Assembly: GCA_002723295.1 (NCBI GenBank)
Contig: PBNP01000008.1
Location: forward strand, 1 to 64,000
Direction of reading: 5' to 3'
Length of the DNA: 64,000 nucleotides
Source of the DNA: Flavobacteriaceae bacterium
GTDB taxonomy: Bacteria; Bacteroidota; Bacteroidia; Flavobacteriales; Flavobacteriaceae
Every line of letters starts with the position of its first letter. Position 1 is the stretch's first letter. A program made the translations under genes and the position numbers. The notes under the pieces are model-generated. The model saw nothing but the letters and a program-made list of their open reading frames with translations, did not search any database and was not told where the DNA came from. Positions 49,838-63,741 of this stretch are shown one piece after another.

Positions 49838-50806
49838 TTATTTTACTAGGTTTTTGTAAACACTATCAATTATTTTTCTTCCATGTTCTCTTGAATTTTC
49901 AATGAACCACTTGTTTGTTTTCAAACCACCACATACTACTCCTGCTAAATAAAGCCCTTCTACTTTAGATTCCATTGTTTTTTTATTATAAACGGGAGTC
50001 TTATACTGATCTTTTTTATAAGTCACACCCAGGCTTGTTAGCATATTAAAATTTGGCTTATATCCTGTCATAGCTAACACAAAATCATTTTTTATTTTCT
50101 TTTTCCCTTTAGGAGTTTTAATAAGGACTTCTTTTTCCTTGATTTCAATAATATTCGAGTTAAAGTATGCTTTGATCTCTCCATCCTTAATTCTATTAAC
50201 TATATCTGGCCTTACCCAATATTTTACATTCTTGCTTATGCTATTTTCTCTGATTACTAATGTTACGCTTTTTGCACCTTTTCTATAATTTTCAAGAGCA
50301 GCATCCACAGCAGAATTTGCTCCTCCAACTATAATTAAATCCATTCCAAAAAAAGGATGAGGCTCTGAGTAATAGTGCCTAACCTTTGTAAGGGTTTCTC
50401 CGGGAACATTTAAAAGATATGGTGAATCATAAAAGCCGGTTGCTATTACAATATTTTTTGATTTGTATTGTCCTTTTAAAGTTTTAACATTGAAATAGTT
50501 TTTATGCTTTTTTATTTCACTAACCTCCTCATATAATTTAACTTTTAAGTTTTTTAAAATGGCAACTTTTCTATAATATTCTAGAGCCTCAGTTCTTGTT
50601 GGTTTATTTTGTTGGGAAATAAATGGGATTTGACCAATTTCCAATCTATCAGATGTTGAAAAAAAAGTCATGTTTAATGGGTAATTAAATATAGAGTTTA
50701 CCAATACGCCTTTTTCAATAATATAATAATCTAGATCCCTTTTTTCACAAGCCAAACCGCAAGCCATACCTATTGGACCACCTCCTATAATAATTATATC
50801 TTTCAT
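49838..50806 (-). CDS. YpdA-like FAD/NAD(P)-dependent disulfide reductase
   Basis: This 322-residue protein has the FAD-binding motif IIIGGGPIGMACGLACEKRD at the N-terminus, NIVIATGFYDSPYLLNVPGE near residue 122, a second dinucleotide fold MDLIIVGGANSAVDAALENY near 155 and DFVLAMTGYKPNFNMLTSLG near 246. It matches YpdA, the putative bacillithiol disulfide reductase, which resembles thioredoxin reductase but lacks the CxxC pair. Bacillithiol synthesis genes are not in the window. A promoter with little or no 5' leader lies directly upstream. Confidence 0.88.
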   Translation of the reverse strand: MKDIIIIGGGPIGMACGLACEKRDLDYYIIEKGVLVNSIFNYPLNMTFFSTSDRLEIGQIPFISQQNKPTRTEALEYYRKVAILKNLKVKLYEEVSEIKKHKNYFNVKTLKGQYKSKNIVIATGFYDSPYLLNVPGETLTKVRHYYSEPHPFFGMDLIIVGGANSAVDAALENYRKGAKSVTLVIRENSISKNVKYWVRPDIVNRIKDGEIKAYFNSNIIEIKEKEVLIKTPKGKKKIKNDFVLAMTGYKPNFNMLTSLGVTYKKDQYKTPVYNKKTMESKVEGLYLAGVVCGGLKTNKWFIENSREHGRKIIDSVYKNLVK

Positions 50807-51072: not shown

Positions 51073-52746
51073 ATGAAAACTAACGATAACTTTAATTTTA
51101 AATTTTATGAATTAGAGAAAAATTTAAGCGATAAGCCTTTTCTTAGACAACCTTTTGGAGATAATTGGGAAGAGTATACTTGGGAACAAACTGGCCAAAT
51201 GGCGCGTAAACTGGCTACTGGTTTAAAATCTCTTGGCTTAAAAGAAAATGCACATATCGGCTTAATTTCAAAAAACTGCCGTGAATGGGTAATTTCTGAT
51301 CTTGCAATTATAATGGCTGGGTATATTTCAGTTCCCTTTTTTGCTACATTAACTGGAAAGGAATTAGGTAATTTACTAGATTTTGGTGATGTGGATGCTT
51401 TATTTGTTGGAAAAATTGAACATTGGGATGAAATTAAATCATTTATTCCAAAAGAAATGCCAATTATTTCTTTTCCAGCATATAATGAACATTCATTCGT
51501 TGATAGAGGATATTCTTGGGATGATTTTATTAACTCTCATCAAGCGCTTGAAACCCCTCATGTTCCAAAGATGTCTGATACTTGGACAATAATTTTCACC
51601 TCTGGTACAACTGGAACCCCGAAAGGCGTGGTATTATCATATAGGGCAAATAATGGCACTAAAGTTATCTCTGAAAACACTAATCCTCTCAAAATTGATC
51701 ACAATGGGAACAATCACTTTTTTTCATATTTACCTATGAATCATATAGCGGAAAGAATAGTTGTAGAGTATACAGCCTTTAACTATGGGGGAACTATATC
51801 ATTTGTTGAATCTATTGATACATTCGGAGATAATTTAAATTCTGTTCAACCAACTGTTTTTTTTGCTGTTCCTAGAATTTGGACAAAATTTCAGACGGGA
51901 ATACTAAGTAAATTTTCTCAAAAAAAATTAAATACACTTTTGAGCATTCCTTTAGTTAGCTCAATAATAAAAAAGGCACTGATTAAAAAGCTTGGATTAA
52001 GTCGAGCTAGAGCAAAGGTTTCGGGTGCAGCTCCGATGCTAACTTCTCAAAGAGAGTGGTATCGTAAAATTGGAATAAATATCATAAATGGTTATGGCAT
52101 GACAGAAAACTGTGCCATAAGTAATCAACTTGCTGATGATATATGGGACAGACCAGGTTCTGTTGGAATTCCTCAAGAAGGAGTTTCTATAAAAATTAAT
52201 CCTAAAAACGGTGAAATTTTAATGAAAGGAATATTTTTAATGGAAGGATATTATAAAGACCCTAAAACAACTAATGAAACTCTTATTAATGGATGGCTGC
52301 ATACAGGCGATCAAGGCCATGTAGATAATGATGGATTTCTTTATATAACAGGAAGAGTGAAAGATCTTTTCAAAACATCAAAAGGAAAATATATTGAACC
52401 TCTTTTATTAGAGGACTATTTTGGAAAATACTCAGAGTTTGAGCAAATCTGTATAGCTGGGCTTGGAAATCCTCAGCCTATTTTACTAGTTGTTCTTTCA
52501 GATGTCGGAAAAAGTATTGATAAAGATGAATTTGAAAACAAGTTTAAAGAAGATTTGAAAAAAATTAATTCAGGCCTAGAAGGATATAAAAAAATATCAA
52601 CAATTATTGTAGTAAAAGACTCATGGACTGTAGATAATGGATTAGTTACACCAACTCTTAAGGTAAAACGACCTATGATTGATAAAAAATATGGAGAACA
52701 TTACCTGAAATGGGATGAGAATCCATCATCTGTAATTTGGGAATAA
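51073..52746 (+). CDS. Long-chain acyl-CoA synthetase (AMP-binding)
   Basis: This 557-residue protein has the AMP-binding P-loop WTIIFTSGTTGTPKGVVLSY near residue 176, the NGYGMTENCAISNQLADD block near 340, GWLHTGDQGHVDNDGFLYI near 410 and the hinge region GRVKDLFKTSKGKYIEPLL near 430. It activates a carboxylic acid to its CoA ester, and its length fits FadD/FACL-like enzymes. It precedes the large TonB receptor and the beta-oxidation operon and is the natural entry enzyme for that pathway. The 266 bases before it hold only AT-rich sequence, with a possible TATATTTA -7 box near 51045. Confidence 0.92.
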   Translation: MKTNDNFNFKFYELEKNLSDKPFLRQPFGDNWEEYTWEQTGQMARKLATGLKSLGLKENAHIGLISKNCREWVISDLAIIMAGYISVPFFATLTGKELGNLLDFGDVDALFVGKIEHWDEIKSFIPKEMPIISFPAYNEHSFVDRGYSWDDFINSHQALETPHVPKMSDTWTIIFTSGTTGTPKGVVLSYRANNGTKVISENTNPLKIDHNGNNHFFSYLPMNHIAERIVVEYTAFNYGGTISFVESIDTFGDNLNSVQPTVFFAVPRIWTKFQTGILSKFSQKKLNTLLSIPLVSSIIKKALIKKLGLSRARAKVSGAAPMLTSQREWYRKIGINIINGYGMTENCAISNQLADDIWDRPGSVGIPQEGVSIKINPKNGEILMKGIFLMEGYYKDPKTTNETLINGWLHTGDQGHVDNDGFLYITGRVKDLFKTSKGKYIEPLLLEDYFGKYSEFEQICIAGLGNPQPILLVVLSDVGKSIDKDEFENKFKEDLKKINSGLEGYKKISTIIVVKDSWTVDNGLVTPTLKVKRPMIDKKYGEHYLKWDENPSSVIWE

Positions 52747-52876
52747 GCTCTGATTTATAAATTAAAGTTTAAAGCCTTGATATTCAATAATTTAAATAAT
52801 ATTTGAGCCTGATAAATCATTGAAAAAAACATCTAAAATTTCATTTGAAGGCTAAAAAATATTATATTCACACTAC

Positions 52877-52897
52877 GGGACATGATATATCTGTCCC
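52877..52897. promoter_or_regulatory. Inverted repeat upstream of the TonB receptor, possible operator
   Basis: GGGACA and TGTCCC flank TGATATATC, a palindromic-type core of 9 bases. The element is conspicuous in surrounding AT-rich DNA and lies about 80 bases before the receptor ATG. Dyads of this kind are typical for dimeric regulators, but no regulator is encoded nearby. Confidence 0.35.
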
Positions 52898-52975
52898 AAT
52901 TTTAAAACAAATGATAAATAAAATATTTAGTTTTTTATCTACGTATAAAACCAAAACTTAACAATCAAACAAATT

Positions 52976-55900
52976 ATGAAAACATCGTTTATTAAAACAT
53001 TTTTGTCTTTGACTTTCTGTTTATTAGCGAATCTGGTTATAGCCCAGTCAACTATAACAGGAACTATCCAAGATGAAAATAGTGATCCAATCCCAGGAGT
53101 TAATATTGTAATAGAAGGAACATCTGAAGGTGTAGTCTCTGATTTTGATGGTAATTTTACAATTACTACTAATCAAGCACTACCTTTTAATATTACTGTT
53201 AGCTCTGTAGGATTTAGCTCTCAAACAATTGAAGTAACAAACGCAGAGCAATCTATTAGTGTATCGTTGGCGTCAGGGACTAGGCTAGATGAAGTCATTA
53301 TTTCTGCTTCTCGTAAAAGAGAAAAAGTACAGGAAGCCCCTGCTTCGGTAACCTTAATCACTGCTAGAGATATTGAAAACTCACCCTATGTTAATGACCC
53401 AGTTACTCAATTGGTTAATGTGCCTGGGGTTCAAATTCAACAACAATCTGCACAAACAATAAATATTGAGATGCGTGCTGGCTCTGGGGTATTTGGAACA
53501 AGTACTTTCCCAATTTTAGATTACAGATATTTAGTAACTCCTGCTGCAGGATCATTTTTAACTTACCAATCTGGTATGAGTAATTTAGATATTGCACAGA
53601 TTGAAGTTGTTCGAGGAGCTGCTTCTGCACTTTATGGTCCCGGTGTTACATCTGGTGTTGTGCACTTTATTACTAAAAATCCAATTGATTATCCAGGCAC
53701 TGCAGTTGAAATGTTTGGAGGAACTCAAAGCACTTATGGTGGAGCAGTTCGTTATGCGCAAGCAAATTCAGGCAAAACATTTGGATTTAAAATAAATGCA
53801 AGGTTTGCCAGAGGTGATGAATTTGAATTAGACCAATATGAAGACCAAGATATTATTGATACTTTTTCTACAACAATTAGTCAACCTGCCATAACTAATC
53901 AAATGGTAGACGCTACTCAACCTGGTACAGTTTTACTAGATCGCTCAGATTTAGATCCTGATGGGGATAACAATATGTTAGCATCTGAGTATCAAAACTA
54001 TGCTGTTAATGCTCATTTGGAGTTTCGCCCATCTACTAATACTCAGGCATTTTTATCTGGAGGATTAAACAATGGAGGTGGCTTATTCTTCAATTCTCAA
54101 GGACATGGGTTTACCCAGGGAAATGATTATTGGACTCAAGCTCGAATTCAATCAGGTGGATTTTTTGCGCAAGCATATTGGAATCACAATGATGGAGGAG
54201 ATGCAGAAAACCCTACCTTTTTATACGCCAGTGGGTTCCGTCAGGTTGCAGAACGCACTTCTTTGGAAGCACAATTACAATACAATTTTGATGTAAGCGC
54301 TCTTAATACTGAAATTACAGTTGGTATGGATTATAGAGACACTGCATCAAATTCTGATTACACCCTTTTTGGGCGAAATGATGACGATGATCCATATACA
54401 ATAACAGGGGTTTATGGTCAAGGAACAACAGTCTTAAATGATCAGGTAGACTTGACTTATGCTATGCGATATGATCAATTTAATTTAGTTGATGAAGGTG
54501 CTTGGGCCCCTAGGATTGCTTTGGTATATAAGGTGGATGAAAGAAACACATTTAGGGTTTCTTATAATGTTGCCACCTTTGGTCCTTCTGCTCTTGAGGC
54601 TTATATCGATTTCCCTGTTAATACTATTGCACCAGGTATTCTTGATATATGGTTGGCTGGACAAGTTTCACCGCAAACCTTTGCTGCTCCAGAAGCACAA
54701 ATGATGGAATTAGCTGCACTAGGAATATCTATCCCTGCTGCTACACCAGGATTGCCTCTTAATATTGTTTATCAAGCTGTTTCCTCACTTTCAACACCTG
54801 GAGCTATAGCTCTCTTACCTGGTTATGGACTGGGAGATTTTGCCCCTATACTTCAAGGAGTTATGGATGCTTATCCTGGACCTCAAGGAATGACAGGACA
54901 GTTTATTGGTTCCAATTTATTTAATGGTGACTCTATGGCATTTGCTACTGATACACCACAAGCGTCTATTGGAACGTTGTCATCATGGGAAGTTGGATAT
55001 AAAGGACTAATAGCTGACAAATGGGCTATAGGTCTTGATATTTATAGCTACAACAGAAAAGGATTTACGCAATTTACTGCTTTAGCTCCTTCTTATGCTC
55101 TAGTTGGATTTGACCCTCAAGATCTTGGAGATGAAGTTGGTGCTTACGTTGCTGGAGCTGTTCAAGATCCGGTCACTGCTGCAGTAACACCATTGGTTCA
55201 AGCTGGAATTGAAGCTGCAACTCTTGATGCAGTTACAGGAGGAGTAACACAAGCTTATCAAGATGCAGCTAATCTATTAGCTGGCGCTGGAATTGATTTT
55301 GCAACTTTATCAGCTAACGGATTAGATGTTGCAACTGCGGCGGCTATTTCTGCAGCAGTTGGATTTACTGTAGACCCAATGCCAGATTTGGCAACAGCTA
55401 TTGCAGGCACTTATGCTACATCAATTGGACCAGCTCTCGCTGCTAATCTTGATAGTGCAGTTGGTGCTCAAGTAGCCCAAATTGTTGGAGGTCTTTCTGG
55501 AATCGCTGGAGGTGCTTATGTTGCTGGAGCTGAAGGATTTCAGGGACAAGCAGGTCAACTTTTCCCAGTTCTTGGAACAGTAGAGTCTAATCGAACTCCT
55601 CAAGGAGATGGAATGACACATATTCCTGCTGGATATCGTCGCTTTGGTGATTCTGAAAGAAGTCACTATGGAGCTGACCTTGCTGTAGAATATTTTGCCT
55701 CGAAAAATCTTAGTTTATGGGGTAATGCATCATGGTTGAGTCAGAATGTATGGACTCCTGGACAATATGGTGATGACGGATTACAGTTTTCATCTTTTTT
55801 AAATGCTCCTATGTGGAAATATAGATTAGGAATGAAGTATACTGGTCAGAATGGATTTAGAACAAGCGTTTCATTTCAACATGATGATTCATTTGACTCT

Positions 55901-56086
55901 AATCAAGGTATGTTTTCTGGAGTTGTTCAAGAGAAAAACTTATTTGATGTTAGTGTAGGAAGAAAATTTGGAAAGATTCAAGTTGATTTAGCAGGAAGGA
56001 ATATATTTGATCAAAAATATAGAGCATTTCCTGGTATGCCTATTATTGGAAGACAAGTATTGCTAAAAGCTAATTTTAACTTTTAA
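52976..56086 (+). CDS. TonB-dependent receptor with Ala-rich insertions
   Basis: This 1036-residue protein has a signal peptide (LLANLVIAQ), a carboxypeptidase-like regulatory domain (residues 24-105, with VNIVIEGTSEGVVSDFDGNF), a plug with RLDEVIISASRKREKVQEAP and IAQIEVVRGAASALYGPGV near 213, and a barrel ending in IFDQKYRAFPGMPIIGRQVL and a C-terminal Phe. Residues about 540-660 and 714-862 are insertions rich in Ala, Gly, Pro and Leu that ordinary receptors lack, probably extracellular loops or a secreted domain. Richer GC than its neighbours suggests high expression. It sits between an acyl-CoA synthetase and a fatty-acid-type operon, so it may import a hydrophobic acid. Confidence 0.9.
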   Translation: MKTSFIKTFLSLTFCLLANLVIAQSTITGTIQDENSDPIPGVNIVIEGTSEGVVSDFDGNFTITTNQALPFNITVSSVGFSSQTIEVTNAEQSISVSLASGTRLDEVIISASRKREKVQEAPASVTLITARDIENSPYVNDPVTQLVNVPGVQIQQQSAQTINIEMRAGSGVFGTSTFPILDYRYLVTPAAGSFLTYQSGMSNLDIAQIEVVRGAASALYGPGVTSGVVHFITKNPIDYPGTAVEMFGGTQSTYGGAVRYAQANSGKTFGFKINARFARGDEFELDQYEDQDIIDTFSTTISQPAITNQMVDATQPGTVLLDRSDLDPDGDNNMLASEYQNYAVNAHLEFRPSTNTQAFLSGGLNNGGGLFFNSQGHGFTQGNDYWTQARIQSGGFFAQAYWNHNDGGDAENPTFLYASGFRQVAERTSLEAQLQYNFDVSALNTEITVGMDYRDTASNSDYTLFGRNDDDDPYTITGVYGQGTTVLNDQVDLTYAMRYDQFNLVDEGAWAPRIALVYKVDERNTFRVSYNVATFGPSALEAYIDFPVNTIAPGILDIWLAGQVSPQTFAAPEAQMMELAALGISIPAATPGLPLNIVYQAVSSLSTPGAIALLPGYGLGDFAPILQGVMDAYPGPQGMTGQFIGSNLFNGDSMAFATDTPQASIGTLSSWEVGYKGLIADKWAIGLDIYSYNRKGFTQFTALAPSYALVGFDPQDLGDEVGAYVAGAVQDPVTAAVTPLVQAGIEAATLDAVTGGVTQAYQDAANLLAGAGIDFATLSANGLDVATAAAISAAVGFTVDPMPDLATAIAGTYATSIGPALAANLDSAVGAQVAQIVGGLSGIAGGAYVAGAEGFQGQAGQLFPVLGTVESNRTPQGDGMTHIPAGYRRFGDSERSHYGADLAVEYFASKNLSLWGNASWLSQNVWTPGQYGDDGLQFSSFLNAPMWKYRLGMKYTGQNGFRTSVSFQHDDSFDSNQGMFSGVVQEKNLFDVSVGRKFGKIQVDLAGRNIFDQKYRAFPGMPIIGRQVLLKANFNF

Positions 56087-56124: not shown

Positions 56125-56152
56125 AGAAAGAGCAACGAGAGTTGCTCTTTCT
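56125..56152 (+). terminator. Terminator hairpin after the TonB receptor
   Basis: AGAAAGAGCAAC and GTTGCTCTTTCT form a perfect 12-bp stem around GAGA, followed by a T-rich stretch (TATTTT). It should separate the receptor transcript from the operon that starts at 56301. Confidence 0.75.
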
Positions 56153-56300: not shown

Positions 56301-57044
56301 ATGTATAGTTTAAAAGGGCAAATAGCTATTATAACAGGTGGAGCCAGAGGTATTGGTGAAGGAATTTGTGAAATATTTTGTAATGCTGGAGCAACTGTTG
56401 CATTATGGGATATTTTAGATTTAGGAAAAGAAACAGCTGATAGAATTTCTTCTAATAGCGGATCTGTATTTTTTCAAAAAGTTGATGTCACAGATAATAA
56501 AAGCGTTGGAAATGCTGTTGAAAAAATTATTTCAAAATATGGAAAGATTGATATTTTAATAAATAATGCTGGTGTTATTAGAGACCGTTCTTTTTTAAAA
56601 ATGTCACCTGAAGAATGGAATACAGTAATTAATGTTAATTTAAATAGCCTTTATATAACAACAAAAGCTGTTCTTCCTCATATGAGAGAGGCTGGATACG
56701 GAAGAATTATTTCAGCATCATCTATTAATGGATACCAAGGAGCTTTTGGTCAAGCCAATTATGCTGCAACTAAAGCGGGAGTATCCGGTTTTACCCGAGC
56801 TCTTTGTAAAGAAGTTGGCAGATTTGGAGTAACAGTTAATGCTGTTGCGCCTGGATTTATCAAATCAGAAATGTCTGATTCAATGCCAGAAGAAATTATC
56901 AAAGCAGCAATTGAGCAAATTCCTGTAAAAAGAATTGGAACTACTGAGGATATGGGATATTGTTATCTTTTTCTTGCCTCAAAAGAAGCAGGATTTGTTA
57001 CCGGAATAACCTTACATGCTAATGGTGGCTCGATGCCAATGTAA
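56301..57044 (+). CDS. Short-chain dehydrogenase/reductase, FabG-like
   Basis: This 247-residue protein has the NAD(P)-binding TGGARGIGEGICE at residues 12-24, DILINNAGVIRDRSF near 88 and the catalytic Ser-Tyr-Lys set ISASSINGYQGAFGQANYAA followed by TKAG near 138-160. It also has VTVNAVAPGFIKSEM near 181. It is most like 3-oxoacyl reductases or 3-hydroxyacyl-CoA dehydrogenases. It is the first gene of an eight-gene operon, with 2 bases to the next gene. In this setting I expect oxidation of a hydroxyacyl-CoA intermediate. Confidence 0.9.
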   Translation: MYSLKGQIAIITGGARGIGEGICEIFCNAGATVALWDILDLGKETADRISSNSGSVFFQKVDVTDNKSVGNAVEKIISKYGKIDILINNAGVIRDRSFLKMSPEEWNTVINVNLNSLYITTKAVLPHMREAGYGRIISASSINGYQGAFGQANYAATKAGVSGFTRALCKEVGRFGVTVNAVAPGFIKSEMSDSMPEEIIKAAIEQIPVKRIGTTEDMGYCYLFLASKEAGFVTGITLHANGGSMPM

Positions 57045-57046
57045 TT

Positions 57047-57823
57047 ATGAGTTTAAAGAATAACAATTTGTTTAATTTAAAAGATAAAGTTGCTATAGTT
57101 ACAGGTGCTAGTAAAGGTATTGGTCTAGCTATTTCTAGGGGTTTTGCTGAATTTGGCGCCAAAGTTGTAATTAGTAGTAGATCACAAGAAGCTCTGGAAT
57201 TAGCAGCATCTGATTTGCAGAAAGAAGGGCTTGATGTTTTTGCTCAAGCTTGTCATGTTGGAGATTCAAATCAAAGAAAAGTATTAGTTAAAAAAACTAT
57301 TGATGAATTTGGTTCTATAGATATTTTAGTTAATAATGCAGCAATTAACCCTATACAGGATTCTATACAAAATTTTTCTAGTGAATTATTCGATAAGATG
57401 CTAAACGTAAATTTGAAAGCTGCTTTTGATTTAAGTAATCTATGTTTTCCATATTTAAAAGCTAAAAAGGAAGGATCAATAATAAACATATCTAGTGTTG
57501 AAGGTCTAAAGCCAAGCTTAGGCTTAGGAATATACAGCGTTACCAAGGCTTCTTTAAATATGCTGACACAAGTTCAGGCTAAAGAATGGGGAATATATGG
57601 AATACGCTCAAATGCAATTTGCCCTGGGTTGATAAAAACCAAATTTAGCTCTGCATTATGGAAAAATGAACAACTGATGAAACATATAAAAAATCAATTG
57701 CCCCTGGGAAGAGCTGCTGAACCAATAGAAATAAGTGGCTTAGCTGTTTATTTAGCTTCTTCTGCTGGAAGTTATTCAACAGGTGGAATTTACACTGTCG
57801 ATGGAGGGCATATGACAATTTAA
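57047..57823 (+). CDS. Short-chain dehydrogenase/reductase (second of pair)
   Basis: This 258-residue protein has TGASKGIGLAISRG near residue 20, DILVNNAAINPIQDS near 92, the active-site series NISSVEGLKPSLGLGIYSVT near 145 with K following, and RSNAICPGLIKTKF near 185. It is a classical SDR with 2 bases between it and the previous gene and 12 to the MaoC gene. Two different SDRs in one operon suggest two oxidation steps, or (R)- and (S)-specific alcohol oxidation. The substrate is unknown. Confidence 0.9.
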   Translation: MSLKNNNLFNLKDKVAIVTGASKGIGLAISRGFAEFGAKVVISSRSQEALELAASDLQKEGLDVFAQACHVGDSNQRKVLVKKTIDEFGSIDILVNNAAINPIQDSIQNFSSELFDKMLNVNLKAAFDLSNLCFPYLKAKKEGSIINISSVEGLKPSLGLGIYSVTKASLNMLTQVQAKEWGIYGIRSNAICPGLIKTKFSSALWKNEQLMKHIKNQLPLGRAAEPIEISGLAVYLASSAGSYSTGGIYTVDGGHMTI

Positions 57824-57835
57824 TTTTTAATAATA

Positions 57836-58321
57836 ATGGAATCAAAAAATCAAAAAGCATACAAATCAAAATTTAATTCTATTGATGAATTTGGAACCAA
57901 TGTTGGCACTGAATTAGGTTTAACTGAATGGAATAAAATGGATCAGGAAAAGATAAATTTTTTTGCTGACCTTACTGAAGATAGGCAATGGATTCATATT
58001 GATCAGGAAAGATCTGAAAAAGAATCACCATATAAAACTACTATAGCTCATGGATTTCTAATGCTGTCAATGTGTTCTAAGCTTATGTTTGAAAGCTATG
58101 AGTTGCATAATGTTAGAATGGTTATAAATTATGGACTAGATAAAGTTCGTTTTACAAATGCAACAGCCTCAGGGTCTGAATATAGAGGAAGAGTTACCCT
58201 CTTAGAATTTCATCCTAATCCTAATGGAGCAAAATATAAATTACAGGTTATAATTGAGTTAAAAGGACAAGAAAAACCTGCTTGCATTGCTGAATTTTTA
58301 GCGCTTGCATATAAGAAATAG
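57836..58321 (+). CDS. MaoC-like dehydratase / (R)-specific enoyl-CoA hydratase
   Basis: This 161-residue hot-dog-fold protein has NVGTELGLTEWNKMDQEKIN, then FADLTEDRQWIHIDQERS near residue 44 (the catalytic Asp and His of the D-x(4)-H pattern) and TTIAHGFLMLSMCSKL near 70. These are the conserved parts of the MaoC/PhaJ hydratase family. It should hydrate an enoyl-CoA to the (R)-3-hydroxyacyl-CoA. The enoyl-CoA hydratase gene begins 3 bases after its stop. Its neighbourhood supports a beta-oxidation variant. Confidence 0.9.
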   Translation: MESKNQKAYKSKFNSIDEFGTNVGTELGLTEWNKMDQEKINFFADLTEDRQWIHIDQERSEKESPYKTTIAHGFLMLSMCSKLMFESYELHNVRMVINYGLDKVRFTNATASGSEYRGRVTLLEFHPNPNGAKYKLQVIIELKGQEKPACIAEFLALAYKK

Positions 58322-58324
58322 AAT

Positions 58325-59107
58325 ATGGGAAAAGTCGTATTATATAATACAACGGAAGGTGTTGCAATTATAACATTAAATCGACCTGAAAGATATAATG
58401 CTGTAAATCAAGGTTTAATTGATGGGATTAATGAATCTTTAGATAAAGCAAGCGAAGACAAACATGTTAGAGCTATAGTAATAACTGGAGCTGGTAAAGG
58501 CTTCTGTGCAGGAGCAGACATGAGCGTTTTTGGAACCAATGTTACTCCTGAGCAGAGAAGAGATTATTTAATTAATCAATATCGGCCTTTGATAAATAAG
58601 TTTTATTCATTGAAGAAACCTATTATTGGAGCTATTAATGGAACTGCAGCTGGAGTAGGAGCTGCAATTGCCTTAGCTTGTGATTTAAGAATTATGAGTG
58701 AAAATAGCTCATTATTGTTTGCATTCATAAATATTGGCCTAGGTCCTGATGGAGGTGCTAGCTGGTTGCTTTCAAGACAGGTAGGATATAGTAAGGCCTT
58801 TGAAATAGCTATTAGTGGAAAAAAGATTTTGGGTAATGAATGTAAAGAATTAGGATTAACCAATAGAGTAGTTCAAGATCAAAATATTGTTGATGAGGCT
58901 ATATCATGGGCTAAAGAACTAGTTCAGAAACCAACTTTAGCAATAGGAATAACAAAACAAGATATGTTTTATTCAATGACTAATGATTTAAATGAAACAA
59001 TTGCTTTTGAAGCAAAATGTCAAGTTGCTGCATTTAATAGCTATGATTTAAAAGAAGGAGTAACTGCATTCATAGAAAAACGAAAACCAAAATTTAAAGG
59101 AAAATAA
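58325..59107 (+). CDS. Enoyl-CoA hydratase/isomerase
   Basis: This 260-residue crotonase-fold protein has VAIITLNRPERYNAVNQGL near residue 13, GAGKGFCAGADMSVFG near 57 (an oxyanion-hole segment), INGTAAGVGAAIALACDLRI near 99 and FINIGLGPDGGASWLL near 130. The position of the usual second catalytic Glu is occupied by Asp or Gly in GPDGG, which suggests a PaaG/EchA-type isomerase or hydratase rather than the standard FadB type. It lies between MaoC and the first acyl-CoA dehydrogenase, each at close spacing. Confidence 0.9.
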   Translation: MGKVVLYNTTEGVAIITLNRPERYNAVNQGLIDGINESLDKASEDKHVRAIVITGAGKGFCAGADMSVFGTNVTPEQRRDYLINQYRPLINKFYSLKKPIIGAINGTAAGVGAAIALACDLRIMSENSSLLFAFINIGLGPDGGASWLLSRQVGYSKAFEIAISGKKILGNECKELGLTNRVVQDQNIVDEAISWAKELVQKPTLAIGITKQDMFYSMTNDLNETIAFEAKCQVAAFNSYDLKEGVTAFIEKRKPKFKGK

Positions 59108-59117
59108 ACAATCACTA

Positions 59118-60302
59118 ATGAATTTTGAAGAAATAAAATTAAAAGCTCAGAAGTTTGTAAAAGAAGAGCTTTACAGTTTAGAGCCATGGATTTTAAATTG
59201 CGAATGGGATGAAAAACTTCCAAAGTTGAATGAAATGCGAGAAAAAGTTAAATCTTTAGGATTATGGCTACCTCAAATATCTAAAGAATATGGAGGCCTT
59301 GGTTTAACAAATGCTCAACATGGTGAAGTCAGTGAAATTCTTGGATCAAGCCCTTATGGACATTATGTTTTTAATTGCCAGGCGCCTGATGCAGGAAATA
59401 TGGAGATTTTAATAGAGTTTGGAACAAAGGAACAAAAGGAAAAATACTTGTATCCTCTACTAAATGGGGATATTCGAAGTTGTTTTGCCATGACTGAACC
59501 TGATTATGCTGGATCGAATCCTGTAAATATGGGGACTATTTCAATTAAAAAAGATGGAAAATATATAATTAATGGACATAAATGGTTTACCTCCGGTTTT
59601 GATGGTTCTGAATTTGCAATTGTAATGCTTATTTCAAATCCAAACTCAGATAATCCATATAAAAAAGCTAGTCAAGTAATTGTGCCTTCAAAATCCAAAG
59701 GCCTAGAGTTAATTAGAAATATTCAGATAATGGGACATTCTGGAGGTGGATGGGAAAGTCATTCTGAGATAAAATTTGATAATGTTGAAGTCCCTGTTTC
59801 AAACGTATTAGGCGGTGATGGAGAAGGTTTTTCAATAGCTCAAAAGAGATTAGGGCCTGGAAGAATTCATCATTGTATGAGATGGATTGGAATCTGTGAA
59901 AGATCATTTGATTTAATGTGCAAAAGAGCATTATCAAGAGAACTAGATCATGGCAAAACACTTTCAGAGAAACAAACAATACAAAATTGGATTTCAGAAT
60001 GTAGGGCTGAAATTAATGCAGCACGTTTATTAGTTCAAGATGCTGCTCATAAAATTGATATTCAAGGAGCATATAAATCCCGAAATGAAATTTCTATTAT
60101 TAAGTTTTATTGCGCAAATGTTCTACAAAAAGTTGTTGATTGTGCAATTCAAGTTCATGGAGCAAAGGGAATTACTGATGACACAATCCTAGCTACATAT
60201 TATAGACATGAACGTGCAGCAAGAATATATGATGGAGCTGATGAAGTGCATAAAAGTAGATTAGCTAGAAATATTTTAAAGGAATATAATATCAACAATT
60301 AA
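59118..60302 (+). CDS. ACAD10/11-like acyl-CoA dehydrogenase
   Basis: This 394-residue protein has LPQISKEYGGLGLTNAQHGE near residue 51, SCFAMTEPDYAGSNPVNMG near 119 (FAD and substrate loop), GHKWFTSGFDGSEFAIVML near 154 and a C-terminal QVHGAKGITDDTILATYYR followed by HERAARIYDGADEVHKS. The CFAMTEP form and EVHKS tail are those of the ACAD10/11 group. The next gene is an APH-type kinase, matching the kinase plus dehydrogenase domains fused in mammalian ACAD10/11. It probably passes electrons to EtfAB. Confidence 0.9.
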   Translation: MNFEEIKLKAQKFVKEELYSLEPWILNCEWDEKLPKLNEMREKVKSLGLWLPQISKEYGGLGLTNAQHGEVSEILGSSPYGHYVFNCQAPDAGNMEILIEFGTKEQKEKYLYPLLNGDIRSCFAMTEPDYAGSNPVNMGTISIKKDGKYIINGHKWFTSGFDGSEFAIVMLISNPNSDNPYKKASQVIVPSKSKGLELIRNIQIMGHSGGGWESHSEIKFDNVEVPVSNVLGGDGEGFSIAQKRLGPGRIHHCMRWIGICERSFDLMCKRALSRELDHGKTLSEKQTIQNWISECRAEINAARLLVQDAAHKIDIQGAYKSRNEISIIKFYCANVLQKVVDCAIQVHGAKGITDDTILATYYRHERAARIYDGADEVHKSRLARNILKEYNINN

Positions 60303-60313
60303 TAATAAATAAA

Positions 60314-61402
60314 ATTAAATCAATAGTATATAAAACAGATAGGCCTATTGAGGTTCGCAAAGATGAAGCTTTGGATGTAATTTCTTTAAGAAAATTTTTA
60401 TTAGAGAAATTGGGGAAAATATCAAAGTTTGAAGTATTACAATTTCCTTATGGATATTCAAATTTGACTTATTTTATAAAAACTGAAAACAAGAAAATGG
60501 TATTAAGAAGACCACCATACGGATCCACTGTTAAATCTGGGCATGATATGAAAAGAGAATTTAACATTCTTAGTTCTTTAAAAAAGCATTTTAATAAAGT
60601 TCCTTTACCAATTATTTATTGTAATGACAAATCAATAATTGGTGATGAATTTTATATAATGGAAAAAGTTGACGGGGTAATATTTAGAGGATCAAAACCA
60701 CCTTTTGAATGGCCTAAACCTAACTTAATGCCTTCACTAGTAAACTCTTTTATTGACTCTTTTACAAAACTACATTCTTTAAATATTAAGAAAATAGGAC
60801 TTGAAAATTTTGGAAAACCAAAAGGATATGTTAATCGTCAAGTAAATGGATGGATAAAACGTTATAATAATGCTAAAACTCATAATTTTAATGGAATTAA
60901 TAAAACAATAAGTTGGTTGTCAAATCATTTGCCTAAGAAATCTAAAACAGCTATTATTCATAATGATTTTAAATTTGATAATATTATGTTCAGAATTCAC
61001 AATAATAAAGCTCAAGTGAATGCTATTCTAGATTGGGAAATGTCTACTATTGGTGACCCGCTTATGGATTTAGGAACAAGCTTGGGATATTGGATACATT
61101 ATACGGATCCAGAGAAACTCCAAAATTTAAATTTAAATATAACTACAGTTAAAGGGACTCCTTCAAGAGAAAAACTAGTTCAATTATATTGCGAAAAAAC
61201 GGGGAGTTCAGTTAATAATATAGTTTTTTATTTTGTTTTTGGATTATTTAAAATTGCAGTTATTATTCAGCAAATTTATTTTCGTTATGTAAATGGTTTC
61301 ACCAAAGACCTGCGATTCAAAAATTTAGATAAAGGCGTTGAATTATTGGGCATTATGGCATTACAAGCCATACAGAAAAAAAAGATTGATTATTTATTTT
61401 AG
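60314..61402 (+). CDS. APH-family kinase (ACAD10/11 kinase-domain-like)
   Basis: The protein has KTDRPIEVRKDEALD then an LRKFLLEKLG helix, FPYGYSNLTYFIKTENK, VLRRPPYGSTVKSGHDMKRE, AIIHNDFKFDNIMF (catalytic Asp, Asn) and ILDWEMSTIGDPLMDLG (metal Asp). This is the aminoglycoside-phosphotransferase fold seen in ACAD10/11 and LvaA. The homologous N-terminus extends left of the TTG at 60371, and no ATG, GTG or TTG lies in frame before it. I place the start at an ATT at 60314, with low certainty. It probably phosphorylates a hydroxyacyl-CoA, not an antibiotic. Confidence 0.85.
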   Translation: MKSIVYKTDRPIEVRKDEALDVISLRKFLLEKLGKISKFEVLQFPYGYSNLTYFIKTENKKMVLRRPPYGSTVKSGHDMKREFNILSSLKKHFNKVPLPIIYCNDKSIIGDEFYIMEKVDGVIFRGSKPPFEWPKPNLMPSLVNSFIDSFTKLHSLNIKKIGLENFGKPKGYVNRQVNGWIKRYNNAKTHNFNGINKTISWLSNHLPKKSKTAIIHNDFKFDNIMFRIHNNKAQVNAILDWEMSTIGDPLMDLGTSLGYWIHYTDPEKLQNLNLNITTVKGTPSREKLVQLYCEKTGSSVNNIVFYFVFGLFKIAVIIQQIYFRYVNGFTKDLRFKNLDKGVELLGIMALQAIQKKKIDYLF

Positions 61403-61420
61403 ATAAGAATTATAAAATAT

Positions 61421-62614
61421 ATGGATACAAAATTAAATATAGACTTGGAGAACTTTAGACTGGAAACCAGAGCATGGCTAGAAGTAAATTGTCCTGCAAG
61501 TATGCGAAAACCAATTAAAGACTCAAGTGAAATGTTTTGGGGAGGACGAAACCCCGAATTTACAAGTCAAGATCAAAAAATATGGTTTGAGAATATGTTG
61601 GAAAAAAAGTGGATTGTTCCATATTGGGAAAAAAAATATGGTGGAGGAGGTCTTTCTGCAGAGGAAAATATTATTTTGACTCAAGAGATGAGCAGATTGG
61701 GTTGTCGAAGACCTTTATTTAGCTTTGGTATTGCAATGTTAGGTCCTGCTCTATTAAAATTTGCAACTGAAGAACAAAAATTAAATTATCTGCCTGAGAT
61801 TGTTGAAGGTAAAATTTGGTGGTGCCAAGGTTATAGTGAACCTGGAGCTGGAAGTGACTTGGCTGGACTTCAAACAAAAGCTGAAGACATGGGAGAATAT
61901 TATTTAATCAATGGATCAAAAGTTTGGACAACATATGCTAATAAAGCTGATTGGATGTTTTGTTTGGTAAGAACTGACAATAAAGTATCAAAACACAATG
62001 GAATCAGTTTTATTTTAATTGACATGTCAACTAAAGGCGTAAGTGTAAGACCTATTAAACTTATTAGTGGAAAATCTCCATTTTGTGAAACATTTTTTGA
62101 AAATGTGAGAGTTCCAAAATCTAATTTGGTTGGAAATTTAAATGAAGGATGGACTATAGCAAAATATTTATTGAGTCATGAAAGAAAAATGATAGGTGGT
62201 GTTGGAGTAACTGAAACTAAAAAAGAAGTACATGAATTAGCAAAACTCAATCTGGAATGCTCATCAGGACAGTTAAATAATTCTTTACTTAGAGCTGATA
62301 TAGCTAAATTTGAGATGGATGAGACTATTTTTGAATTAACAATTCAGAGAATTATAGATGAAGATAAGAGCGGCAAAAAAGCTTCTCAGCTTTCATCTTT
62401 TTTTAAATATTATGGAACAGAACTTAATATTAAACGTGAAGAGTTATTAATTCAAATAGGTGGTAATAATTCTTTAGTATGGACTCCCACTGAAGAAAAT
62501 GACGGAAATGCAGCAAGAAAATTTTGTCGTTCAAAAGGCAACACTATTGAAGGAGGAACATCGGAAATTCAACTAAATATAATTGCAAAAAGAATACTTA
62601 ATTTGCCTACTTAA
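61421..62614 (+). CDS. Acyl-CoA dehydrogenase, alpha-like subunit
   Basis: This 397-residue protein has VPYWEKKYGGGGLSAEENI near residue 67, WWCQGYSEPGAGSDLAGLQ near 131 (FAD/substrate loop), GSKVWTTYANKADWMFCLVR near 165 and a C-terminal SKGNTIEGGTSEIQLNIIAK. The CQGYSEPGAGSDLA and IEGGTSEIQ forms resemble the larger-motif subunits of heterotetrameric dehydrogenases such as those in steroid side-chain degradation. The next gene encodes a partner-like protein with degenerate motifs. It likely acts on a bulky acyl-CoA and donates electrons to EtfAB. Confidence 0.88.
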   Translation: MDTKLNIDLENFRLETRAWLEVNCPASMRKPIKDSSEMFWGGRNPEFTSQDQKIWFENMLEKKWIVPYWEKKYGGGGLSAEENIILTQEMSRLGCRRPLFSFGIAMLGPALLKFATEEQKLNYLPEIVEGKIWWCQGYSEPGAGSDLAGLQTKAEDMGEYYLINGSKVWTTYANKADWMFCLVRTDNKVSKHNGISFILIDMSTKGVSVRPIKLISGKSPFCETFFENVRVPKSNLVGNLNEGWTIAKYLLSHERKMIGGVGVTETKKEVHELAKLNLECSSGQLNNSLLRADIAKFEMDETIFELTIQRIIDEDKSGKKASQLSSFFKYYGTELNIKREELLIQIGGNNSLVWTPTEENDGNAARKFCRSKGNTIEGGTSEIQLNIIAKRILNLPT

Positions 62615-62622
62615 AAAAAAAT

Positions 62623-63741
62623 ATGCCATTAATTTTAACAGATGAAGAGAAAATGCTTAAAGAGGCTGCTAATGAATTTTTAGCCTCTAACTCTTCTTTG
62701 AAAAGCTTTAGAAAACTAAGAGACAATAATTATCAATCATTTGACCAAGATTTATGGAAAGGAATGATTGAAATGGGATGGACGGCTTTAACTATTCCAG
62801 AAGCATATGGAGGATTAGATTTTGGATATACAGGATTGGGTCAGATTTTGGAGGAAACTGGTAAGACTCTGGCAAAATCTCCTTTAATTTCATCTATTTT
62901 GTTTTCGGCAACAGCAATTAGATTATGTGACAATGAAAACCTCAAATCAAAATGGCTTCCAGAATTAATGAAAGGAAATATTTTGATGGCGCTTGCTTTA
63001 GATGAGAAAGCTCACTTTGATCCTAATAACATTAATTCAACAGCCAAATTATCTGGCAATAAATATGTTATTAATGGTAAGAAAAAAATGGTTCTTGATG
63101 GATCTAATGCTGATTATTTTATAGTAGTAGTTAATGAAGCTAATATGACCAGTTTTTTTTTAATTGATGTCAAATCTAAGGGGATTGAAATTAAATCAGA
63201 TATCTTAATGGATACTGGAGAGTACTCTTCTGTTGTTTTTAATAAAGTTTCTGTTGCATCTGAAAATAAACTTAATATTAAAACAAATGGAGATTCAATT
63301 TTACAATCCTTGTTAAATATCACTTCGGCTGGACTTGCTTCTGAAATGTTAGGAAGTATGCAAGCAGCTTTTGAAAAAACAATGGATTATATTAAAGAAA
63401 GAGAACAATTTGGCAATAAAATTGGAAAAAATCAAAGCTTACAGCATCGAGCAGCTCTTCTTTTTTGTGAAATAGAATTGTGTAAATCAATTGTTTTAAA
63501 AGCACTTAAAGCTATTGATAATGATGAAACAAAAAAGATTGAGTTTTCTCACCTAGCTAAGGCCAAACTTGGAGAGGTTTTAAAACTTACTACCAATGAA
63601 GCTATTCAAATGCATGGAGGTATAGGCGTAACAGATGATGCTGATATTGGATTTTATCTTAAAAGAGCAAGAGTAATTCAACATCTTATGGGGGACAAAA
63701 ACTATCACCTAAATTGCATTGCCAAAATCAAAGGGTATTGA
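62623..63741 (+). CDS. Acyl-CoA dehydrogenase, beta-like subunit with degenerate loop
   Basis: This 372-residue protein has the acyl-CoA dehydrogenase fold: MGWTALTIPEAYGGLDFGYT near residue 50, REQFGNKIGKNQSLQHRAAL near 260 and AIQMHGGIGVTDDADIGFYL near 327, with KRARVIQHLMGD after it. The usual TEPxxGSD substrate loop is replaced by LMALALDEKAHFDPNN. Loss of that loop together with the preceding gene suggests it is the second subunit of a heteromeric dehydrogenase. The gap to the previous gene is 8 bases. It is the last gene of the operon. Confidence 0.88.
   Translation: MPLILTDEEKMLKEAANEFLASNSSLKSFRKLRDNNYQSFDQDLWKGMIEMGWTALTIPEAYGGLDFGYTGLGQILEETGKTLAKSPLISSILFSATAIRLCDNENLKSKWLPELMKGNILMALALDEKAHFDPNNINSTAKLSGNKYVINGKKKMVLDGSNADYFIVVVNEANMTSFFLIDVKSKGIEIKSDILMDTGEYSSVVFNKVSVASENKLNIKTNGDSILQSLLNITSAGLASEMLGSMQAAFEKTMDYIKEREQFGNKIGKNQSLQHRAALLFCEIELCKSIVLKALKAIDNDETKKIEFSHLAKAKLGEVLKLTTNEAIQMHGGIGVTDDADIGFYLKRARVIQHLMGDKNYHLNCIAKIKGY

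Follow-up and report, generated by a model that had tools for sequence, protein, structure and literature searches.

A separately encoded kinase and ACAD10/11-type dehydrogenase of a Flavobacteriaceae bacterium probably strip the hydroxyl from 4-hydroxy fatty acids

Rand et al. reportedly tied the removal of a 4-hydroxyl group by phosphorylation to a Pseudomonas operon in 2017. The same chemistry was tied to mammalian ACAD10 and ACAD11 only in 2024-2025 (PMC11342911, PMC12440821). Here, we analyse a pair of neighbouring genes in a stretch of 64,000 nucleotides (hereafter the window; positions 1 to 64,000 of contig PBNP01000008.1) from a probably marine Flavobacteriaceae bacterium, whose source assembly GCA_002723295.1 is a draft of 1.27 Mb and 68.8% complete. 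The genes encode an acyl-CoA dehydrogenase (ACAD) and a kinase that, in the manner of human ACAD10 and ACAD11, probably remove the hydroxyl of 4-hydroxy fatty acids after its phosphorylation:

59118-60302, + strand: ACAD10/11-type acyl-CoA dehydrogenase of 394 amino acids, the proposed 4-phosphoacyl-CoA phosphate-eliminating enzyme (LvaC role)
60326-61402, + strand (start by alignment with congeners): APH-fold kinase, the proposed 4-hydroxyacyl-CoA kinase (LvaA role)

In mouse ACAD11, the residues R626, R631, H634, R637 and D753 are named for the handling of 4-phosphoacyl-CoA, and changes at R626, H634 or R637 ablate the dehydrogenase step (PMC12440821). A conserved proline, Pro463 of human ACAD11, is described in PMC11342911 as widening the pocket. 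PMC6692424 reports that LvaD of P. putida converts levulinyl-CoA to 4-hydroxyvaleryl-CoA, and that a short-chain dehydrogenase (SDR) 67% identical to LvaD lies beside the LvaA and LvaC homologues of P. citronellolis.

The dehydrogenase and its kinase

A preliminary description of this DNA reported a dehydrogenase with CFAMTEP and EVHKS features, followed at once by an APH-fold kinase with HNDFKFDN and DWE. This is indeed what the locus contains. The ACAD carries CFAMTEP and DGADEVHKS, and the kinase, with both of its motifs and a Pfam APH match of 130.8 bits, is the next gene on the same strand. As also described, the two are separate genes: the ACAD stop codon lies at 60300-60302, and the open reading frames are in different frames. 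The named motifs are present but not diagnostic; the diagnostic residues are R244, the HHCMR at 251-255, D372 and P90 of the ACAD, all of which are in place.

A search of the PDB with the ACAD returned human and mouse ACAD11 (2wbi, 4.5e-82; 8v3u, 1e-81; 8v3v, 5.2e-81) and 4hr3 of Mycobacterium abscessus (4.5e-79), against 7.7e-38 for the best ordinary ACAD. Its AlphaFold2 model (predicted local distance difference test score, pLDDT, 92.5) likewise has 4hr3, 2wbi and 8v3u as best fold matches. At the places named for ACAD11 it has R244, R249, H252, R255, D372 and P90, and C253 and M254 are also present. Here, HHCMR corresponds to HCMR of mouse ACAD11, and R244, H252 and R255 match mouse Arg626, His634 and Arg637 (by alignment to chain 8v3u, allowing for an offset of one). 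D372 is the catalytic Asp that replaces Glu.

These residues were compared in 114 relatives and in 24 ordinary ACADs, the latter comprising 21 from related genomes, one from the window's own genome and the PimC- and PimD-like proteins of the same operon. Asp stands at position 372 in 114/114 relatives, 80 of which were found with patterns that include the Asp motif, while 22 of the 24 ordinary ACADs have Glu. P90, within NCQAPDAGNME, is Pro in 113/114 relatives and in 0/24 ordinary ACADs. At the places of R244, R249, H252, R255, D372 and P90, ordinary ACADs mostly have T, R, I, Q, E and N, so that only R249 is common to both; the remaining R, H, R, D and P occur in 0/24. The full six-place signature P-R-R-H-R-D is complete in 33 of the 34 relatives from a protein search, which form the fair set, and the 34th has unreadable codons at two of the places. 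It is also complete in 78 of 80 further relatives, referred to below as the named relatives; these are the best 80 of 588 confirmed and were retrieved by patterns including two of these motifs, so that motif conservation among them is biased. By its sequence, the protein belongs to the ACAD10/11-LvaC type, apart from ordinary acyl-CoA dehydrogenases. Identity as an ordinary short- or medium-chain acyl-CoA dehydrogenase was rejected on the active-site residues and on the trees described below.

For the kinase, six PDB chains were found at E <= 0.001: 9o56 (1.7e-80; 41% identity), two of mouse ACAD11 (8v3v at 1.7e-51, the other at 2.3e-50; 33% identity to the kinase domain), 3dxp of Ralstonia eutropha (8.5e-43) and, more weakly, the 25-hydroxy steroid kinase 9fsg (3e-05; 20% identity over 234 aligned positions) and Rv3168 (3ats; 6e-04). 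None of the six is a resistance enzyme, although both 9o56 and 9fsg were deposited under the name aminoglycoside phosphotransferase(-like). In the tree that we built from 90 kinases, 9o56 groups with Bacillaceae kinases from loci whose ACAD is of the ACAD11 clade. The window's kinase has the catalytic H-x-D-x(4)-N as well as the RQV arginine. Counted from codon 60314, D218 and N223 correspond to Asp220 and Asn225 of mouse ACAD11, and R175 to its CoA-contacting Arg176. The arginines and catalytic residues are identical in every one of the kinases that align at the respective place, which are 82 to 85 of 85. Together, these matches assign the kinase to the ACAD11 type. The predicted model (pLDDT 89.9) has 3dxp as its best fold match, then 9fsg/9ft5 and Rv3168 (3ats), and thereafter sugar, homoserine and antibiotic kinases.

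Other kinase identities were also considered. That of an antibiotic-resistance kinase was rejected because resistance models give 20-24 bits where their cut-offs are 205-550 and the sequence search leads to ACAD11 and its kin; that of a choline kinase on model scores and the sequence search; and that of a defence-system kinase for want of any PADLOC match. The preliminary description had named grouping with antibiotic or choline kinases, or of the dehydrogenase with ordinary short-chain enzymes, as grounds for abandoning its reading. Neither was found, the kinase being judged by model scores and sequence search rather than from a tree holding such kinases, and the dehydrogenase by trees of 46 and 70 rows.

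Distribution and phylogeny of the pair

To what extent the two genes go together was assessed in an even sample of 395 genomes from the phylum of the window (ACAD at E <= 1e-50, kinase at E <= 1e-35). The ACAD was found in 27 genomes and the kinase in the identical 27, the window's own included, while 368 had neither. Each of the 27 has one ACAD match and one kinase match, a count bounded by the scoring, which took no more than 4 ACAD and 5 kinase candidates from any genome. Assuming independent genomes, the chance of such agreement is 3e-41 (26/394, own genome left out). The two genes lie within 200 bases of each other in 16 genomes, within 3 kb in 21 and within 10 kb in 22. In the other five they are unlinked, once at 101 kb and four times on different contigs. 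In these four genomes the genes are at least 8 kb inside their contigs, except for one kinase 3.4 kb from an end, and linkage alone can therefore not explain the agreement. As a control, we took 22 ordinary-ACAD loci (21 from other genomes, one from the window's own, with up to ~1.5 kb on each side), none of which matched a panel of 90 such kinases. Of the 80 named loci, 48 have a kinase no more than 3 kb from the ACAD.

In one locus, the ACAD10/11-type gene and the kinase are separated by an AidB-like ACAD (L178:7058-8734) whose C-terminal part has an ACDH-11-like Pfam match; similar genes occur in 6 loci.

ACAD trees were built from rows picked for spread out of 141 aligned, with 46 in a careful tree and 70 in a quick one. 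In the former, ordinary ACADs (7 rows) are separated from the rest with support of 99/97. The rest contains a clade of human ACAD11 and 4hr3 (14 rows, 100/99) and, beside and not inside it, the clade of the window's ACAD (25 rows, 99/94). The tree program flags W_pimC, the PimC-like protein of the operon, as a long branch adjoining the ACAD10/11-type union. The quick tree recovers the same two clades (19 rows at 100 and 39 rows at 99), and there the window's clade spans Bacteroidota, Chloroflexota, Planctomycetota, Myxococcota, Thermodesulfobacteriota, Spirochaetota, Acidobacteriota and Pseudomonadota. Six of its rows, actinobacterial and Aneurinibacillus proteins among them, fall outside both clades, and the ACAD10/11-type family therefore has further branches. 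Culturable members of the window's clade, such as Aquiflexum, Lunatibacter and Spirosoma, have both genes.

The clades had first been drawn by identity, with at least 50% to the window's ACAD or else at least 52% to human ACAD11. Rows assigned to the window's clade in this way are 50-87% identical to its ACAD and 36-43% to ACAD11. Of the 80 named rows, 17 fit neither clade and are omitted from the 46-row tree; seven of these entered the 70-row tree, which puts one into the window's clade, another next to the ACAD11 clade and the remaining five outside both. LvaC, reported in PMC11342911 to be 62% identical to ACAD10 and 56% to ACAD11, should by these figures belong to the ACAD11 clade and not to that of the window.

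The 26 other genomes with the pair comprise 19 with an ACAD of the window's kind and seven with one of the ACAD11 kind. With up to four candidates scored per genome, none has both, consistent with two lineages filling a single role. In the 90-kinase tree, where the outgroup 9fsg is a long branch, kinases group by the clade of their ACAD incompletely, with 9 changes against a minimum of 2, so strict co-inheritance of the pair is not supported. Taken together, the trees and sequence matches place the window's clade as a sister lineage to the ACAD11 clade, and the pair as a true member of the known kinase-ACAD system. The preliminary description had called this niche uncharacterised, which is fair for the clade: we recognised no published account of it among the open-licence papers listed for ACAD10/11, the lva genes, Bacteroidetes and fitness data.

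A further sign of the substrate comes from a close relative, AG-390-P11, whose ACAD is 80% identical and branches just outside the seven genomes of the window's genus. It has the whole operon and one extra gene between ACAD and kinase (L048:11197-12708). The product matches 6vjr (2.7e-228) and 1u8v (1.5e-166) in the PDB, with the next chains at 5.9e-26; in NCBIfam it matches HpaB models only, far under their cut-offs. Based on these matches, it is a 4-hydroxybutyryl-CoA dehydratase/vinylacetyl-CoA isomerase. The dehydratase occurs in 2 of the 395 phylum genomes, both among the 27 with the pair (chance 0.0045 if genomes were independent, kinship uncorrected), and in one of 40 relatives (G024), which also has the pair. 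Its place within the operon is an independent sign of 4-hydroxyacyl-CoA; the numbers are small, the position telling.

The surrounding operon and the proposed pathway

The ACAD and kinase are genes five and six of an eight-gene operon, a tight run on the + strand (56301-63741) in the order SDR1, SDR2, MaoC, crotonase, ACAD, kinase and two more ACADs, with gaps of 2, 12, 3, 10, 11, 18 and 8 bases (kinase frame counted from 60314). The other genes and the features upstream are:

56301-57044, + strand: SDR1, FabG-like, proposed (R)-3-hydroxyacyl-CoA dehydrogenase
57047-57823, + strand: SDR2, short-chain dehydrogenase, proposed 4-oxo/4-hydroxyacyl-CoA oxidoreductase (LvaD role)
57836-58321, + strand: MaoC-like hydratase (PF01575, 66.7 bits), proposed (R)-specific enoyl-CoA hydratase
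58325-59107, + strand: PaaG-like crotonase, proposed enoyl-CoA isomerase
61421-62614, + strand: PimC / Tcur3483-type ACAD, putative large subunit of a two-gene acyl-CoA dehydrogenase
62623-63741, + strand: ACAD of the PimD kind, proposed second subunit
51073-52746, + strand: FadD-like acyl-CoA ligase (PRK06187, 217.5 bits, below the cut-off of 476), proposed for acid activation
52976-56086, + strand: TonB-dependent receptor of 1036 amino acids (PF13715, PF13620, PF07715, PF00593)
56125-56152, + strand: terminator-like stem-loop of 12 pairs with a T-rich tail, after the receptor gene (consensus scan)

SDR1 passes the FabG subfamily model NF009466 (231 against a cut-off of 222), and five FabG/acetoacetyl-CoA reductase models score 254-267 bits, all below their cut-offs. 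SDR2 has PRK07035 as its best model (258 bits, under the cut-off of 373), exceeds the cut-off of 215 for the broad PRK07231 'glucose 1-dehydrogenase' model with 237 bits, and is nearest to DHRS4 among solved chains. In the MaoC-like hydratase, FADLTEDRQWIHID contains the Asp and His of the MaoC motif. The crotonase has an Asp in GPDGG and is without the hydratase glutamates. Its closest PDB chains are 6slb/6sl9, 3hrx, 2ej5 and the 1,2-epoxyphenylacetyl-CoA isomerase 4fzw_C, and none of the 25 NCBIfam models listed for it reached its cut-off. The PimC-like ACAD scores 288.8 bits with TIGR03204 (cut-off 623.85) and best matches 6wy9, 6wy8 and 4x28. Its PimD-like neighbour scores 189.4 bits with TIGR03203 (cut-off 652.7) and has ordinary ACADs as best PDB matches, with Tcur3481 at 6e-23.

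The operon would begin after the stem-loop at 56125-56152, which is weak evidence of a terminator since the scan found 8 such sites in the region where chance would give 6.1. A promoter scan gave 53 sites, fewer than the 62.8 of shuffled sequence, and no promoter is therefore claimed.

Gene content, gene order, residues, phylogeny and co-occurrence are observed, and from the reactions of homologues the following route can be proposed. The ligase would activate the acid, and SDR2 would interconvert 4-oxo- and 4-hydroxyacyl-CoA. SDR2 is a candidate for the LvaD step because LvaD reduces levulinyl-CoA and the LvaD-like SDR of P. citronellolis adjoins the LvaA and LvaC homologues. The kinase would transfer phosphate from ATP to the 4-hydroxyl of 4-hydroxyacyl-CoA, giving 4-phosphoacyl-CoA. 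In the ACAD, Asp372 would then take the alpha-proton, with the flavin adenine dinucleotide (FAD) participating without net reduction, and the phosphate held by Arg244, His252 and Arg255 would be expelled to leave 2-enoyl-CoA. The PaaG-like crotonase may shift double bonds and the PimC/D-like pair may introduce them, while MaoC and SDR1 would take the enoyl-CoA through (R)-type beta-oxidation. As the crotonase is PaaG-like and without the hydratase glutamates, hydration is probably the task of MaoC, and oxidation that of SDR1. The thiolase would be encoded elsewhere; Thiolase_C is matched in 5 of the 7 genus genomes. The preliminary description also thought of lactone-derived acids as substrates, which found no backing, there being no lactonase among the scanned products (Pfam/NCBIfam assignments).

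All eight genes occur in the same order in 7/7 genus genomes, that is in the window and in 6/6 congeners, whose ACADs are 72-87% identical to that of the window. In each of the seven, the TonB receptor is linked to the operon; so is the CoA ligase, within the stretches examined, in the window and 5/6 congeners. In three of the six congeners (L043, L044, L045) the ligase-receptor block (51073-56086 in the window) is inverted relative to the operon and still linked. The receptor is less conserved (48-61%) than the enzymes.

Open reading frames within 8 kb of the 114 ACADs were clustered without labels, and families were named from one representative each. The largest, by number of loci, were the kinase (61), SDRs (51), crotonase (15), 3-hydroxyacyl-CoA dehydrogenase (13) and MaoC (11). 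A gene at least 40% identical to SDR2 is found within 3 kb in 43/114 loci (8/8 of the genus and family, 21/80 named, 14/26 of the phylum) and in 0/22 control loci, and is thus a frequent, not constant, neighbour of the ACAD.

Several further genes lie nearby. A pyridine nucleotide-disulphide oxidoreductase (49838-50806, - strand; Pyr_redox_3, 314 bits), presumably YpdA-like, stands beside the ligase in the window, and a relative of it is found at the edge of the examined stretches in 3/6 congeners. About 100 bases after the operon, on the same strand (L039:3842-5356; contig 8 from ~63841), follows a gene whose sequence resembles the ATP synthase beta subunit; in 7 other loci, too, the ACAD has such a gene nearby. 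In 5/114 loci, L067:1784-2572 among them, a gene resembling histidine phosphatase (YFIRHGQAS) is near the ACAD. The levulinate cluster of P. citronellolis LA18 also includes a histidine phosphatase (PMC6692424).

Alternative explanations and known systems

We consider it very likely that kinase and ACAD form a two-step system which removes the 4-hydroxyl from acyl-CoA. The reading of the preliminary description, phosphorylation of 4-hydroxyacyl-CoA followed by elimination, thus gains support from the ACAD11 active-site residues and the full co-occurrence over 395 genomes. Several points weigh against it. The ACAD is 40% identical to human ACAD11 and lies in a separate clade, so its substrate may differ from that of ACAD11, and we know of no member of this clade with known activity. 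In the kinase, the REF arginine R81, beside the helix-C Glu, stands two places before the published CoA-contacting R86 by count and was matched by motif only. Among the 50 best fold matches of the kinase model was neither 9o56 nor an ACAD11 kinase domain. The kinase gene of the window does not have the congeners' start codon, as detailed below. The co-occurrence P values ignore shared ancestry, the genomes not being independent. No such kinase lies within 3 kb in 32/80 named loci; flanks are short (<3 kb on a side) in 22 of the 80, including 10 of these 32. The dehydratase was not found in the seven genus genomes, that of the window included, and in G024, G227 and G291 it is on another contig than the ACAD. 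Finally, Thiolase_C has no match in the window's 68.8% complete assembly, and the two Thiolase_N matches in it are weak and just at the cut-off.

The same chemistry might act on another hydroxyl or a bulky substrate, such as a sterol or terpenoid side chain, with a kinase like the 25-hydroxy steroid kinase. The structural relatives of the kinase after 3dxp, namely 9fsg/9ft5 and Rv3168, would suit this, as would the TonB receptor linked to the operon and the PimC-like neighbour, which is closest to Tcur3483 and 4x28. The latter two are two-gene ACADs of steroid (side-chain) catabolism, so that the substrate may be bulky. However, the similarity of the kinase to 9fsg is slight (3e-05) next to that to ACAD11 (1.7e-51). 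The kinase shares the RQV arginine with 9fsg, but neither the Gln after it nor the His of the catalytic loop, and the compared segment of 9fsg does not extend to the REF arginine. The phosphate-binding residues of the ACAD suit a CoA-bound 4-phosphate, and the dehydratase of the sister operon presumably uses 4-hydroxybutyryl-CoA. We therefore regard this alternative as quite unlikely, although a steroid acid whose side chain is a 4-hydroxyacyl-CoA would agree with both readings.

That the pair would be sound in its family and broken in the window's genome, for want of a usable kinase start codon, is highly unlikely. The listed open reading frame (60371-61402) begins at an internal TTG, with the frame open upstream. 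At 60326-60328 the window reads GTA where the six aligned congeners have GTG (3) or TTG (3), which speaks against an intact gene and makes the start ambiguous, so that the gap to the ACAD is between 11 and 68 bases. A start at TTG 60371, the next standard one in frame, would leave out the conserved VRK segment, as the conserved N-terminus VRKDEALDV lies before or across it. Yet the frame is open over 370 codons with its motifs intact, the difference is a single base in a draft assembly, and the rarer start codons ATA and ATT lie just upstream; the GTA may stem from a mistake in the assembly, serve as an unusual start or reflect a genuine lesion. A chance pairing of an ordinary dehydrogenase, dependent on FAD and electron-transfer flavoprotein, with an unrelated small-molecule or resistance kinase is exceedingly unlikely. 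It would fit with Pfam naming only acyl-CoA dehydrogenase and APH-type families, with neither protein passing an NCBIfam cut-off, and with the deposited name of 9o56, the nearest solved chain of the kinase. It conflicts with the Asp in place of the catalytic Glu and the R/H/R of the ACAD pocket, with a co-occurrence that is complete even where the genes are unlinked (five genomes), and with the low scores of the resistance models and the lack of any defence model match.

Returning to the two-step removal of the 4-hydroxyl, the separate clade, the same active site and a kinase in each of the 27 phylum genomes with such an ACAD make this an independent enzyme set. It may help to find the residues that determine chain length, the reason why kinase and ACAD occur together and the 4-hydroxy or 4-oxo acids that these bacteria use. 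More tentatively, and with considerable doubt, the window's clade could be a second, old, uncharacterised phosphorylation-elimination lineage with its own substrate range across Bacteroidota, Chloroflexota, Myxococcota, Thermodesulfobacteriota and others. In the genus it would form an island of receptor, ligase, 4-oxo reductase, the pair and R-type beta-oxidation, and in the sister lineage the radical dehydratase would be a companion for C4, so that one operon would serve primary and secondary 4-hydroxy acids.

Among known systems, 4-hydroxybutyryl-CoA dehydratase (1u8v, 6vjr) presumably shares a 4-hydroxyacyl-CoA substrate with the pair, whereas its mechanism is radical and unrelated. For the 25-hydroxy steroid kinase (9fsg), whose substrate is a steroid tertiary alcohol and whose identity to the window's kinase is 20% over 234 positions, we know of no ACAD10/11-type partner. 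Like the kinase described here, this enzyme of Sterolibacterium denitrificans has the APH fold, and it serves the ATP-dependent dehydration of a hydroxyl (PMC8449060). The aminoglycoside and macrolide phosphotransferases differ in their model scores (20-24 bits against 205-550) and follow, by fold, after 3dxp, 9fsg/9ft5 and 3ats. As with LvaA and LvaC of P. putida, kinase and ACAD are encoded by two genes in the neighbourhood of an SDR and a CoA ligase, and the same chemistry is expected (PMC6692424). In contrast to the lva operon, the TonB receptor and beta-oxidation genes are present, and the gaps of 2-18 bases leave no room among the eight genes for lvaB, the small partner of LvaA, for which the rest of the genome was not searched. 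The LA18 cluster of P. citronellolis is also described without LvaB in PMC6692424. Compared with mammalian ACAD10 and ACAD11, the window encodes two proteins in a bacterial operon instead of one polypeptide, and its ACAD, of a sister clade, is 40% identical to human ACAD11 and its kinase 33% to that of mouse. The Asp base, the HCMR, the upstream Arg, the Pro and the same kind of kinase are common to both.

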